DNA from: Nitrospirota bacterium
GTDB lineage: Bacteria > Nitrospirota > Thermodesulfovibrionia > Thermodesulfovibrionales > JdFR-85
DNA length: 33,211 bases
Assembly (NCBI GenBank): GCA_013152195.1
Contig: JAADGU010000072.1
Location: 1 to 33,211 of the forward strand
Reading direction: 5' to 3'
The translations under genes and the position numbers were made by a program. Under the pieces are notes generated by a model. The model was not told the DNA's origin, made no database searches, and saw only the letters and a program-made list of their open reading frames with translations. Of the stretch, positions 6,568 through 26,731 are shown piece after piece (within the stretch, counting starts at the first letter, position 1; every line of letters begins with the position of its first letter).

Positions 6568-6753
6568 CTCTTAGTTTATCATGCCGGAATGAATTATCTC
6601 CTGTTCCTGCTTTAATTCCTGCAAATCATGGCTCAACAAAGTATTATTATAGTATAATATAAGAATATTGTTATATGTTGAGAACCTTAAATCCCTGAAC
6701 AGAAATCTCCAGCCTTTGGGCGGAGAGATTCACTTTTTAAGGAGGAAAACAGA

Positions 6754-7308
6754 ATGAGTTGGATCCGTACGATAGCAGAAGAAGATGCCGATGGTTTATT
6801 GGCAGAGATCTACGAAGAGACTCGAGCCAAATCAGGGCGTGTAGTTAATCTGGTAAAAGTCCAGAGCCTCCGCCCGGAGACCATGGCAATCGGGAGAAAG
6901 CTTTACCGTCACATGATGGACAGCCCGGGCGGCTTGAGCAAGCTGCAGCGGGTCTTGATCGCTACAGTGGTGTCAAAGCTCAATGGCTGCTATTACTGAA
7001 TGGAAAGCCATGAGTCCGATCTCCGTGAAGAGATCAGAGACGATGCCGAGGTATCGAGAATTCAGGAGGATTACCGCCAGGCCAACCTTGATCCAGCCAC
7101 CAAAAAACTGCTTGACTTTGCAGCCAAATTAACGCTGACCCCTAAAGAAATAAGCAGAACGGATGTTGAAGTTTTACGTGCAACCGGTTTTGCTGATGAA
7201 GACATCCTTGACGCAGTACAACTCATTGGTTATTTTAACTACACCAACCGTGTTATGGATAGCCTTGGAATAGATCCTGAACCCGGGATGAGATACAAAC
7301 CGGAATAA
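6754..7308 (+). CDS. AhpD-family (carboxymuconolactone decarboxylase-like / peroxidase-related) protein, candidate selenoprotein with in-frame TGA (Sec) at 6997-6999
   Basis: ORFs 6754-6999 and 7000-7308 are in the same frame, separated only by TGA. Joined product reads ...VSKLNGCYY[U]MESHESDLREEI..., so TGA is at the second Cys of the family CxxC. AAGGAGG lies before ATG 6754. Confidence 0.85.
7014..7041 (+). promoter_or_regulatory. Putative bacterial SECIS hairpin
   Basis: GTC c GATCTC [CGTGAA] GAGATC aga GAC: perfect 6-bp stem plus a 3-bp lower stem. G is the second loop nucleotide; the apical loop starts 25 nt after the last base of TGA 6997-6999. Confidence 0.75.
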
Positions 7309-8804: not shown

Positions 8805-9274
8805 GATATCATTCCCTCAAAACATCAAAAATGTGCGTTAGTCGAGATTGCGCCATCAGATAACCATACGCACAGGTTAATCGACAGCGTTCAGCCAACC
8901 ATTGGCCAATTCACAGAAAGACATGCCTTTTAAGATTATTGCATTTAATGTCATCATTATATCCGATGATTTCAGGGTTGTCAAGGCAACAGAGACATTT
9001 GGAAGAAAGCGGGCAGGCTGATAAACCTTCAGGTGAGCAGCAGGTTTCTGCAGATGGGCGCAGACCTGGATTGTAGCAGCAGAAATAGTGCAGGTACGTA
9101 AAACGAATTAAGGTGGCTGTCAGAATATTATCTCCACCGGCCAGGTTAAGGATGTCATGTCTTCAGGAATGAGAAATGCCGGGTTCTGGTTCGACAACCG
9201 TGAAACTTTGACATTAAGTGAGCCCCTGTGTTAATAATATAAGATTTAATATCAAGGCTATTTATGGGAGGAGT

Positions 9275-10536
9275 ATGTATTATTTCAGATATATAAAAGG
9301 AGAGCTCTACGCCGAAGATGTTCCGGTCAAGAGCCTTATTGAAGAGTATGGCACCCCCCTTTATGTATACAGCCATAAAACCCTGACCCGGCACCTGAAG
9401 GCGTACAATGACGCCTTCTCGGAAATCCCACATATAATATGTTTTGCAACAAAGGCCAATTCCAACAGCGCCATCCTCCGTCTGATTGCAAATCATGGTG
9501 GAGGCGCTGATATTGTCTCCGGAGGAGAGCTTTACAGGGCCTTACGTGTGGGAATCCCCCCGGAAAAGATTGTTTATGCAGGGGTAGGCAAAACAGATGA
9601 TGAGATTCGATATGCCCTCAGCAAGAGGATATTGATGTTTAATGTTGAATCCGAACAGGAGCTTGAAAGGATTAACGATATAGCAGAGGGCAGATGAATG
9701 TCACTGCACCAATAGCATTGAGAATAAATCCTGATATCGACCCTGAAACTCATCCCTATATATCAACAGGGCTTAGAAAGCACAAGTTTGGCATTCCGAT
9801 AGAAAATGCCCTTGAGTACTACAGAGTGGCCAAGGGGCTTGAAAATATTGAACTGATAGGCGTTCATAAACATATCGGCTCCCAGATAACAAAGATTACG
9901 CCCTTTGTTGATGCACTCCAGAGGATACTGGTCCTCATTGAGAGCCTGAAGGCAGAAGGGATCAATCTGAGATATCTGGACATAGGTGGCGGGCTTGGCA
10001 TACAATATAAGGACGAATCCCCACCCCACCCAAAGGAGCTTGCCCGGAAACTCCTGCCGCTTCTGAGGGGACAGGATATAACCATAATTGTGGAGCCGGG
10101 ACGCTCAATCGCAGGCAACGCTGGCATACTCCTCACAAAGGTGCTTTACCTGAAGAAGGGTGAGGACAGGGAGTTTGTGATAGTGGATGCAGGGATGAAC
10201 GACCTGATGAGACCTACACTGTATGATGCATATCATCACATTCTTCCTGTCAGGAAGAACAGGCGCAGGATGATTGTGGCAGATATTGTCGGTCCTGTAT
10301 GCGAATCAGGGGATTTTCTTGCAAGGGAAAGGGAAATCAACAGTGTGCAGCACGGCGACTGTCTTGCTGTTATGAGTGCCGGGGCCTATGGTTTTTCGAT
10401 GAGCTCCAATTACAACAGCCGTCCAAGACCGGCCGAGGTGCTTGTAAGGGACGGAGAACATTATATTATAAGAAAGAGGGAGACTTACAGAGACCTTGTC
10501 CGGGGTGAGATTATACCCGACTTTCTGGATAAGTGA
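9275..10536 (+). CDS. lysA: Diaminopimelate decarboxylase, split by a net -1 frame change near 9691-9697
   Basis: ORF 9275-9697 (YGTPLYVYSHKTL...FATKANSN) and ORF 9694-10536 (LRINPDIDPETHPYISTGLRKHKFGI...VGPVCESGDFLA) are the two halves of LysA. GGGAGGAG precedes ATG 9275. Confidence 0.9.
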
Positions 10537-20722: not shown

Positions 20723-23700
20723 CTACACCTGAGGACGTGTCTGCACCACATAATAACGGCCCCCGGTACAGGCACCCTCGATATCCTGAGGAGAGCCAAG
20801 GACCTTTTCAACCATGACGCCGACGTTGGTGATTCCGGTCAGGAGTTCATTTCTGAAGTTCTCATCCCAAACCAGTGGCTCCTCTGTATAATCCAGCAAA
20901 ACCTCACGGGGGGGAATCAGCATTACGCTGTCATAAAGGCCGGCCCCCGCGTAACCGCTCAGGTCCTCTCCGTTGGAGTCTGAACGGAAGATGAGCCCTC
21001 CGCCAAAGAGACCAACGCTTTTGCTCGGATAGGAAAGGAGCTGTGGTTCGGACCCTCTTTTTTTGCAGGTAAAACCAAGGGCCCTGCCCGGGTAGTTGCC
21101 GACCAGGGTCTCCCCAAGGCCCAACACCACCTCTGCATAGAGTTCATCACTGTCGCCTGTGAATGGATTGTCCGTATGGATTACAAAGGAATATTCCGCC
21201 TCCACGACCTGCTGGATGAGCACTGCCATAAAAAGGTCCTCATCCGGAATACCCCTTGCCTTACGGCTCAGATATGCCCTTTCATTCCACTTGGATGCCC
21301 AGACACGCTTGATACACATCCAGGCATCATCCCAGTCTTTGGGCCACCCAAGCCCTGCATCCTCCATAACCCCGCGAAGTACGGATGGCAACTCCTCCGG
21401 GGCTTCAAGCCCCAGCAGGGTCTTGCGGATCTCTTCAAGTATCTCTTCGGGGTTACCGTCAAGCCGGGATACGAGTTCCCGGCAACGTTGTGCAATCTCG
21501 CTGTTACGATCCATGGCAAGCACTTTTTCGAATACACCAAACGGCAGTGCCACTGAAGCGGGCAGATGGATCCAGTCGGGCAATTTACCCTGAAGGCGGG
21601 TCAGGGAGGGACTTGCCGCCCACCAGCCCTTCCCTGAAATCCCTTGCACCTATAGCGTATGCTGTAAACTCGGGCCGGGCTATCTTTATGAATCCCAACT
21701 TGACCCGCGGGGGTACATTAACCATTTCACCGGAAACCTCTTCAAATACCACATCTCCTGATGCATCCACCGCAAAGTTAAGGTAACGGCCCCTGAGTGA
21801 TTTAAGGTGCTCAAGGTGTTTTCTGTCGTAACAGATGGCAAAGAGCAGGCGGGCGTTTCGGGCACGGACCGCCACATGCGATACAAGATCAACTGCATCC
21901 GGGGTAATAACAGCGGTTACACCTTCAGGGGGCTCTTCATCTCCCCTTACCTTGTCTGCAATGATAACTGTGGGACTGTCAAACCTTTTGCCCTGAACGG
22001 CCCCTAATGACTCGACCGTCTCCACCCGGCCAATCCCCTGGCCCTGGCTGATAACCTGCCAGTTGCCGAGCTTTGCCTTTTTTCGTAATACCGGGTCCAG
22101 ATAACGCAGAAGCATGGACAGAACAAATGCAGGCCTGCCGCGCACAATCTCCTCAGAGAAGAGTGTAATGGCCCATGAATCTGCCTGAAAAGCCTTGCCG
22201 AGCAATTCTGCCCTGGGTTGCAGCAACTGGTAATAATGGTCGATAAAGGCGCCTATGGCACGCCCTATCCTGTCAAGCACGGCCTTGGCATGGAGTGCCC
22301 GGTCACGGGTAAGGGGAGAGGCCGCCTTAAGCCTTTTCCACTCACGGAGACATGCTGAAAACTCTTCACTGTCATAGAAGAACCTTACGTTCTCAAGCAC
22401 CAGGCTTACCAGTTCTACAAGCTCCTTCACCTCCATGCGGGAGTGTATATTGCGCTCTACGATAACGCGCAGGAACTCCTCGAGTGCAAGGTCGAGGTAG
22501 AGGATATCACGAACCCTGGCGTTATCCTTTTCCGTGTTCAGTAGTCTGTTAAGAATGCGCCGCACCTGGGTGATCCTGTCAACGAGCTCCACCACCTCTG
22601 TCCTGCTGTTATCCTTGTGCTTCCATATGAATTCCAGCATTCCGCTTGCTTCGTCATCCAGTAGATACCTTGCGGCATTGATGGCGCTTTCGAGGTCAGT
22701 GCCGGAATGAACCGATCTTAAAAGTCTTAGATACTCCTCAAAATCATGTATCAGGGCGTCTTTCAGGTGGGGGATAAAATCCGGAGAGCTTTTTATGGGC
22801 CGCTCAAAACCTTCCAGCCTCTCTTTTGTAACGCCTCCGGCCTCAAGTGTTCTGTAGAAGAGCTCGAGATCTCCGTCACTTTTCAGAAAATTCAGGTAAG
22901 CCTCACAGATGACGATATCATCGGGGGTGGCGTTGTTGTGGAGTTTCTGGTGCCACTCCTCCAGAAAATGGCCTGCAACCTCCTTTATGTGGTGTCTGTG
23001 CATGATATGGAGTATCTCGTCACGGATACGCTGGCCCTCACCACCCCTGCCCACTGTGGTCATCATCAGCCGGATTAGATCACGGCTTGCCGGTTCATTT
23101 ATATAGACATCTGCAAGCTTCAGGGTCAGGCGGTCCTGGGAGTGGGTCAATTCTCTTGGCTTTGTATTATAGTTCCGTTGCCAGACCAGTTGCCTTATGG
23201 CTGAAAAACGCAGCCATACAAAAAGCAGTGCCAGGCCTTCCACGTCATTTCTGACATTCTCCAGCAGGTCGTGGCAGAGGTTAAACCTGTGCATCAGTGT
23301 CCATGAATGGTTGCCCATTTCAGCCCGGATGATCTCCTCGGCAAGTTGAGACAGGGGAACCTCCTTTTGACCGGCCACGGGTACGTAGAAATTCTGCCCC
23401 CGGTTTTTAATCCAGCGGCCTGTGCCCGGCTGCCTCAGAACAAAGGGAATCCCCATGGGTGCATCCTCTTCCCTGAATTCCAGTATCAAGCGGTTCAGAC
23501 CTTCGTACAGAACGAAAGGTGTCTCTGCAGCTTTGTCGTCAAAGACCTCTGTTCCGGCTGGATGCATTGAAGCGGGGGGCAGGAGCCATTCATTTCGTCT
23601 GTGCCTTGCCACACCCCAATGCAGGAGCAGGGGGCCAGCCATGTCGGTAAGCAGAACAAGCCGGTAGCGGCCGTCTTCCCTGCTGAGGGCAACTGCCAGC

Positions 23701-24167
23701 TGACTGTCCGGGTCAAGGCCATACATGTCTTTAAATAATACTTCACGCTCCTTCAGCGCCTCTTCCAGTACCTGTGCCGGAGAAGGCCCTTTGCGTGCCG
23801 GTGGTTTAATTCTGATCCGGTAGTTCTTTCCCCGGTTATTGTCCCAGGAGCCGTCTTCAGGAAAGAAGAGGGCAAAGTTCAGGATAGAGAAGTTCAGGTC
23901 CTTATCCAGCCTGATGATAATCCGGCCTTCATTGTTATGACGAATGAAAGGTGTTTGAAGCGCTCCCTTACCAAAGGCCCTGCTGCCTTCGGGCCAGAGC
24001 GGTTGCGGGGGAATCTGCCAGGGGGCACGTTCATTGAGCGCAAGCCCCCAGTGCAGGATACAGGTCTCCGTGCTTTTCATTCGCAGTGATAACTCAACCC
24101 CGCCATCTATCTCCCGTCTCTCTACCAGCAGGGTGGTACCACTTCTTGTCTTTATCTCTTCAGCCAT
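20723..24167 (-). CDS. Alpha-glucan, water dikinase (GWD-like), split by a net +1 frame change near 21600-21620
   Basis: TPDAVDLVSHVAVRARNARLLFAICYD (GWD phosphohistidine domain), EEWHQKLHNNATPDDIVICEAYLNFL, EIVRGRPAFVLSMLLRYLDPVLRKKAKLGNWQVISQG, two N-terminal LHWG...W..PP CBM45-like motifs; ORF 20723-21649 supplies the PPDK-type nucleotide-binding end (YYVVQTRPQV). Confidence 0.9.
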
Positions 24168-24288: not shown

Positions 24289-26731
24289 ATGAAACGGTAT
24301 ATCTGTATACATGGACACTTCTATCAGCCACCCAGGGAGAATCCCTGGCTTGAGAGGATCGAGTTTCAGGAGTCTGCATATCCGTACCATGAGAATGAGC
24401 GGGTCAACGCTGAGTGCTATGCACCTATTGCTGTCTCAAGGATAGTGGATGGTACCGGCAGAATTATCCGGATAGTGAACAATTACGAAAAGATAAACTT
24501 TGATTTTGGTCCAACACTGCTTAGCTGGATAGAGTGGCATTCACCACATATCTACAGGAAAATCATCGAGGCCGACAGGGTGAGTATAGAGAACCGCTCA
24601 GGTCATGGCAATGCAATGGCGCAGGCATATAACCATATGATAATGCCCCTGGCAAACAGGCAGGATAAGGTCACACAGGTTGTCTGGGGCATACAGGATT
24701 TCAGGAAGAGGTTTGGACGTCAACCCGAGGGTATGTGGCTTCCGGAGGCTGCAGTGGATACCGAGACCCTTGAGATAATGAACGAACACGGCATTAGTTC
24801 TTGCTCCGGGGCAGGCAAGGAGTGTCAGGCCGGTTGGAGGGGAAGAGTGGACTGATGTGTCGGGTGGCTCAATAGATACCACCATACCCTATCTCTTCAG
24901 GTTACCTTCAGGGGCTGAGATGCACATTATCTTCTATGACGGGGGAATTGCTCATGACGTCTCCTTTGGTGACCTGCTCAACAGCGGCGAGTCCTTTGCA
25001 AACAGGCTCTTTGAGGCATTAAAGCACGGTGGGAACCCTTCACCAATTGTTAATATTGCAACTGATGGCGAGACTTACGGCCATCACCACAAGTTTGGCG
25101 AGATGGCCCTTGCCTATGCAGTTGACCATATTGAAAGGGACCCCGGGGTCAGGCTGTGCAATTACGCGGAATATCTCTCCCTCAACAAACCCTCACACGA
25201 GGTACAGATCATCGAGAATACCTCCTGGAGCTGTGCCCACGGCATTGAGAGGTGGCGTTCTGATTGTGGTTGCGCCACAGGGGGCCATTCTGAATGGAAT
25301 CAGGGGTGGAGGGCCCCTCTGCGTGAAAGCCTGGACTGGCTGAGAGAAGGGCTTGCACGGATTTATGAAGAACATGCTCCCCGTCTTCTGAAAGATCCCT
25401 GGAGTGCAAGAAACAACTACATAGACGTGATACTGGAGCGCACCGGAACCACAAAGGATGCCTTTTTCAGGGACCATGCCATAAAGTCTCTGAAGAGTGA
25501 GGAGAGGGTTACCGCTTTAAAACTCCTTGAAATGCAGAGAAATGCAATGCTGATGTATACAAGCTGCGGCTGGTTTTTCGAGGACATCTCGGGCATTGAG
25601 ACGGTCCAGATACTCCGGTATGCTGCCCGGGCAATAGAGCTTGCCGGTCAGGTCTCGGGACAATGGCTTGAAGATGAATTTCTTGAAAGGCTTGCAGGGG
25701 CAAAGAGCAATATTGAGGAGCTGGGCAATGGGGCGGATATATACAGAAGGTCTGTAAAGCCTTCAAGGGCGGATCTGAAGAGGGCGACAGTGCATGTGGC
25801 CATAAGCTCCTTCTTTGAAGAGTATCCTGAAGACACAGAGGTCTACTGTTACAGGGTGAAGACGGAAGACTATCAGAAACTGAGGCACGAGGACACGGAG
25901 ATTGCCATAGGCAGGCTTCGCGTTACTTCCCTGATAACAGAAGAGACAAAGACCCTCGTATTTGCTGCCCTTCAACTCGGTGCGTATGATTATAATTGTG
26001 CTGTTACGGATTATACGGATAACAGTGAATACAAAAAGATAAAAAAAGAGATGCTCTCCGGTTTCAGCCGGGGGGACCTTGCGGGAATACTGAAGAATAC
26101 CGAGAGATTTTTTGGTCCTGAGCGCTATACAATCAAGGATCTTTTCAAGGACGAACAGCAGAGGTTGCTCGATGTTATCATCAAAGACAATGTTGAAGAG
26201 ATAGAGAAGAACTTTGAGGGTGTGTATGAAAAGAACTCCTTCCTCATGGGCATGCTTGAGGAGTTCGGTCACAGGATCCCCGGGGTCCTCATGATGGCAA
26301 CCGAGATAGCCCTGAAGCGGGAGATCCAGCAGGAGATACAGAGTAAGAGGGTGGATACGGAAAGGGTCAGTTTCCTGCTCCGGGAGATGAAGCGGTGGCA
26401 TATAAAGCTGGATCTGAAGTGGCTGGAGATGTTCCTGAGGCGAAGACTCGAAGAGGAGATGAGGAGATTCAGTGAGTCCCCTGACTTTGAGCACCTCGAA
26501 AGGGTTAATGAACTGCTGACTGTTGTCTTTCTCTTTCCTGTGCAGGTGAATCTCTGGACTGCCCAGAATATATACTACGATATGCTGATGTCTGTATATC
26601 CTGACATGCTGAAGTGCGAGGAATCTGCTGAAGAGGATATCAGGGCAAAGGATATCAAAGAATGGATATCGGGGTTCCTGCATCTTGGGCAGAGGCTTTT
26701 TTTCAATGTTGAGGAGATAACACGCTTTTGA
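24289..26731 (+). CDS. GH57-family glycoside hydrolase (DUF3536-containing), split by a net +1 frame change near 24788-24800
   Basis: RYICIHGHFYQPPRENPWLERIE...GMWLPEAAVDTETLEIMNEHGI; then LVLAPGQARSVRPVGGEEWTDVSGGSIDTTIPYLFRLPSG...IATDGETYGHHHKFGEMALAYA. Confidence 0.92.

Follow-up and report, generated by a model that had tools for sequence, protein, structure and literature searches.

In a Nitrospirota bacterium, a stop codon appears to cut a gene in two, but the gene is almost certainly intact and encodes one enzyme, with selenocysteine (Sec) inserted at the active site where the apparent stop stands. We hold with very high confidence that the locus is a single AhpD-like thiol oxidoreductase gene and that UGA codon 82 is translated as Sec by the bacterial machinery. 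The single gene, the conserved TGA, the Cys counterpart in homologues, a downstream hairpin and the Sec machinery of the lineage are supported computationally; from here we infer each of Sec insertion, a peroxidase or reductase activity and an electron donor.

Reading frame, family and fold of the locus

The window, which is the whole stretch of 33,211 nucleotides that was analyzed, carries on its plus strand at positions 6754-7308 a frame of 184 codons that begins with ATG at 6754, ends with TAA at 7306-7308 and holds TGA at 6997-6999 as its sole internal stop. ORF calling returned two adjoining pieces, 6754-6999 (81 aa) and 7000-7308 (102 aa), which share one frame without an indel. When TGA is read as Sec, the product has 184 residues and contains LNGCYY-U-MESHESDLR. 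An earlier note on this DNA had described the two ORFs as one frame broken only by this TGA, with a CxxU motif in the sequence just given, and had expected an automatic caller to split the gene; upon re-reading, the coordinates were exact, the motif was present precisely as claimed, and the caller produced the 81-aa and 102-aa pieces. The features of the locus are as follows:

6741..6746, plus strand: AGGAGG ribosome-binding site, as read from the sequence, 5' of the ATG at 6754
6754..7308, plus strand: predicted AhpD-like (TIGR01926, PF02627) CxxU selenoprotein gene, 184 residues including Sec82, TAA stop
6988..7011, plus strand: active-site codons Cys79-Tyr-Tyr-Sec82...His86 (CxxU...H), with C79, Y81, E84, S85 and H86 invariant in 8 aligned members
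6997..6999, plus strand: in-frame UGA, putatively Sec, with TGA in 15/15 distinct subfamily genes and Cys in 13/13 aligned remote homologues
7018..7035, plus strand: bSECIS-like hairpin GAUCUC-CGUGAA-GAGAUC, with a 6-bp stem, a 6-nt loop and G at loop position 2

Homologues likewise carry a purine-rich AGGAGG or GAGG 5' of the gene.

The joined protein was matched by the TIGR01926 model ("peroxidase-related enzyme") with 155.3 bits against a cut-off of 81.8 (E 1.3e-45), over positions 1-177 of 178 in the profile, so that the earlier description of a full-length AhpD/peroxidase-related protein of ~184 aa holds. PF02627 was also matched, and the similarity to the family extends over the sequence before and after the TGA. 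Because the TIGR01926 match is full length and TGA occupies the same codon in 15 distinct homologous genes, the arrangement is more than chance. The CxxC...H residues of TIGR01926, where the second Cys may be C or U, are found as C79, U82 and H86. Two neighboring families were considered and rejected as a home for the protein: NF041238 (AhpD_rel_CFYUT) gave 60.6 bits against a cut-off of 175, with only the second half of its 357-position model matched, and NF053654 (GroundWater_YciW) gave 29.7 bits, far under its cut-off of 310. Both consist, like the locus protein, of CMD/AhpD-type (seleno)proteins, and NF041238 likewise has CxxU (PMC13188914).

The nearest solved relatives by sequence are 6k40 (E 6.4e-31), 2pfx, 2oyo, 3c1l and 2prr, all of which align across the TGA site. 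In the three alignments inspected, the motif reads C-x-Y-C and a Cys occupies the TGA position, as in 6k40. An AlphaFold model computed from eight members reached a mean pLDDT of 70.5 and a pTM of 0.68, with the termini and residues 29-44 modeled poorly; a Foldseek search with this model placed the same set of structures on top, with 6k40 as the best PDB match (E 8e-12, TM 0.67). The predicted fold is the helical one of the AhpD type. AhpD of Deinococcus radiodurans (6k40) thus resembles the locus protein in a near full-length sequence match and in its CxYC...H active site, but it and the structural-genomics relatives 2pfx, 2oyo, 3c1l and 2prr have Cys where the locus protein would have Sec. 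Without its AhpD gene, D. radiodurans becomes more sensitive to H2O2, and AhpD with mutated Cys residues complements the loss poorly (PMC8945050).

In the neighborhood, genes for PsiE and YajQ lie 3' of the AhpD-like gene within the genus only; other members adjoin unrelated genes (YceD, PlsX-like FA_synthesis, MFS, nucleoside deoxyribosyltransferase). Since the neighbors differ among members, the neighborhood offers no functional clue. A search for homologues in phages found none. In relatives L018 and L027, a match to the C-terminal part of the window's lysA-like gene sits on the opposite strand, upstream of the AhpD gene. Within the window, a gene for a decarboxylase of diaminopimelate/ornithine type (lysA-like, 9218-10536) runs in two frames with an indel-like break at ~9694-9697. 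An alpha-glucan water dikinase-like gene (21585-24167) overlaps the ORF that follows it in a different frame (20723-21649), and after a GH57-type ORF (24289-24855) comes a long one whose frame also differs (24857-26731); both have an indel-type look. The AhpD-like ORFs, unlike these breaks, abut in frame with no frame change at the TGA, a distinction that had been drawn from the outset.

Conserved TGA, downstream hairpin and Sec machinery

Homologues were collected in a single scan of 85,488 species genomes, and two further sets, 151 related genomes and 399 from the phylum, were searched and added more. The scan of 85,488 genomes yielded seven close relatives, 62-97% identical, comprising five Nitrospirota-type records (including "Bacterium BMS3Bbin07") and two Desulfobulbaceae bins. 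In each of the seven, codon 82 is TGA. Close homologues (E<=1e-20) were present in 12 of the 399 phylum genomes, each with exactly one internal stop, which is TGA. With duplicates removed, the set comes to 15 distinct genes, spread over Nitrospirota and Desulfobulbaceae, whose products share 62-97% identity with the window protein. TGA stands at codon 82 in every one (15/15), and neither TAA nor TAG was seen there among these 15 genes. No Cys-containing close orthologue of the subfamily was found in the genomes searched. Among weaker, remote homologues that align at the site, Cys is present in 13/13, in the pattern C-x-[YF]-C; these sequences and 6k40 bear out the proposal that TGA replaces a Cys.

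Selection was compared on the two sides of the TGA. Between L018 and the window gene, dN/dS is 0.041 before the TGA and 0.037 after it (pN 0.016 and 0.009, with large pS); between L029 and the window gene, the corresponding pN values are 0.064 and 0.051, at high pS. Both sides change in the manner of a coding sequence, and as pN is low and alike on either side, the part after the TGA is held by the same protein constraint as the part before it.

In the hairpin at 7018-7035, the loop begins 24 nt downstream of the UGA. According to the published model for bacterial SECIS elements, the stem should have 4-16 bp, the loop should have 3-9 nt with a G at its first or second position, the UGA-to-loop spacing should be 16-37 nt, and the MFE should be <= -7.5 kcal/mol (PMC13188914). 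The window hairpin lies within its limits for stem, loop, spacing and loop G; it is bSECIS-like and stands at the right distance from the UGA. For energy, the bare 18-nt hairpin gives -6.0 kcal/mol, short of -7.5, and a 50-nt fold with flanking pairs passes at -12.9; for a 71-nt region, the MFE is -18.4 kcal/mol (z -2.3). In 14 aligned sequences, 100% of cells at the six stem pairs are standard pairs, versus 18-51% for slid controls. A single compensatory change, from UA to CG, occurs in the stem alongside some GU variants, a result matched by 68 of 500 shuffles; covariation in the hairpin is by itself not significant and proves nothing. The suppression of silent changes is stronger evidence for the hairpin than covariation: mean synonymous heterozygosity is 0.096 at stem codons 89, 90, 93 and 94 compared to 0.497 overall, and a proportion of only 3e-5 of random four-codon draws were as low. 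CTC (Leu90) and GAG (Glu93) are unchanged as codons across the 15 genes. In relatives L048, L050 and L051, the loop reads CUUGAU instead of CGNNNN and lacks the G that is usual at its first or second position.

The source genome is a draft of 1.58 Mb that is 78% complete. It contains tRNA-Sec (selC) with anticodon tca (73.5 bits, contig C26) and SelA (600.8 bits, contig C44), while SelB and SelD had no match over the family cut-off in this draft. The expectation that the genome should hold the sel genes is thus borne out for tRNA-Sec and selA; for selB and selD, which fall under the cut-off there, it is genomes of the same genus that have them. Two candidate SelB fragments in the draft were checked and proved to be IF-2 and TypA, with IF-2 the best match to the selB model, and four of the lower-scoring tRNA-Sec candidates, likewise checked, were tRNA-Ser or tRNA-Leu. 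The gap in selB and selD is best read as incompleteness, since a draft at 78% would account for their absence.

When the source and 30 relatives were surveyed, SelB was over the cut-off in 29 of the 31 genomes, the exceptions being the source draft and one genome of the same genus. SelD was also over the cut-off in 29/31, and tRNA-Sec was detected in 28/31. Of the five same-genus genomes, four have SelB above the cut-off, and in the remaining one SelB is split into two pieces; SelD passes the cut-off in each of the five, once as a partial match, with an in-frame TGA in 4/5. An in-frame TGA of its own was seen in SelD of 28 of the 29 relatives (G001-G030) that have an over-cut-off SelD. The genomes of two more distant carriers, L022 and L024, both have SelA and SelB. 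tRNA-Sec was found in that of L022 and was not detected in that of L024, a Desulfobulbaceae bin with a subfamily member, selA and selB. In six genomes (G013, G015, G020, G023, G024 and G427, the last holding L022), tRNA-Sec was matched twice above the family cut-off, with a lower score for the second match.

Alternative readings of the TGA

An ordinary gene caller would output exactly the two ORFs, and these could be two real polypeptides that form a split AhpD, with the upstream ORF stopping at the TGA and ribosomes restarting at the adjoining ATG. Of the 15 genes, 12 have ATG and 2 have GTG directly 3' of the TGA, all possible starts; in L022, however, this codon is GTC, which is no start codon. 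Cys homologues are small or hydrophobic at this place (mostly I, also V, M, A and S), so that M or V there fits ordinary protein constraint. The cut would fall, as judged from the predicted structure, within the active-site helix (H80-94) and would separate the two redox residues. A restart also leaves unexplained why the stop is always TGA and never TAA or TAG, and why the hairpin is constrained. We regard it as very improbable. Decoding of the UGA as cysteine, or by near-cognate suppression, would agree with Cys as the family residue, and sequence alone cannot separate Cys from Sec, but the lineage has Sec machinery, and a SECIS-like hairpin stands at the canonical distance. A UGA-to-Cys code is not known from this lineage, and this decoding appears scarcely credible.

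A false stop, read from TGC or TGT through a sequencing or assembly error, or a decayed gene, might be suspected because other genes in the window look frame-broken (lysA at 9694, GWD near 21600). Against this stand the identical TGA in 15 distinct genes, from independent assemblies in two phyla, and purifying selection that is strong both before and after the codon; as the TGA is conserved, error or decay is excluded for practical purposes, and with it the TGC/TGT misreading that the earlier note had named as a possible refutation. Reassignment of TGA throughout the genome (for example, to Trp or Gly), with plain sense decoding, would likewise explain a TGA that is read through in the AhpD-like gene. 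Yet 7 of 17 other Pfam-supported ORFs in the window end in TGA and 0 of 17 contain it, so that TGA is a normal stop for seven neighboring genes and the code is standard. Trp uses TGG, the homologue residue is Cys and neither Trp nor Gly, and tRNA-Sec and selA are present; the chance of a reassigned code is negligible. Translation of UGA codon 82 as Sec in one AhpD-like protein is the reading that we adopt.

Proposed mechanism and place among known AhpD-like selenoproteins

For Sec insertion, the hairpin at 7018-7035, close downstream of the UGA, would recruit SelB carrying Sec-tRNA(Sec) (anticodon UCA). The ribosome would then insert Sec and complete a 184-residue, mostly helical protein of the AhpD fold, in which Sec82 would stand in for the second Cys of the CxxC...H active site. 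In characterized AhpD, this second Cys of CxxC is the nucleophile that reacts with peroxide, and the first Cys resolves; in Mycobacterium tuberculosis AhpD, the residues are Cys133 and His137. The +4 spacing from nucleophile to His in the M. tuberculosis enzyme equals that of Sec82 and His86 in the locus protein. By analogy, selenolate-based reduction of a peroxide or disulfide with an Se-S intermediate is suggested. In the likely cycle, the selenolate of Sec82 would attack a peroxide or disulfide, Cys79 would resolve the selenenic acid or mixed bond to form an Se-S bridge, and a dithiol donor (a lipoyl domain, thioredoxin or similar) would regenerate the enzyme.

The locus protein is not novel in kind, as the earlier note had recognized. 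CxxU AhpD-like selenoproteins have been known since 2005, when 27 sequences of an "AhpD-like protein" were reported from the Sargasso Sea (PMC1088965). They were followed in 2008 by 299 CxxU selenoproteins of the GOS group "AhpD-like 1" (PMC2398784), and a 2026 review has the entry "AhpD-like protein, TIGR01926, CxxU" (PMC13188914). By model, motif and description, the published proteins (TIGR01926 / COG2128) are like this one in family model, in CxxU with Sec for the second Cys, in widespread Cys homologues and in a SECIS directly 3'; the locus differs in that it sits in a Nitrospirota draft genome. New here are a locus in this Nitrospirota genus that is prone to being split by gene callers and the detail of a close subfamily, patchy across two phyla, in which no Cys orthologue was found. 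It is possible, although we hold it to be rather doubtful, that there is a Sec-only AhpD-like subfamily, patchy in Nitrospirota and Desulfobulbaceae, of which some members use the non-standard SECIS loop CUUGAU. If true, this would point to Sec retention and horizontal spread, not repeated exchange of Cys and Sec.

Knowledge of the family is unchanged by this locus. For the organism, the two fragments of an ordinary gene caller hide a predicted selenoenzyme, with Sec at the active site, in a Nitrospirota genus, and the correction gives the selenoproteome of the lineage one more candidate for oxidative stress or thiol redox functions, next to SelD.
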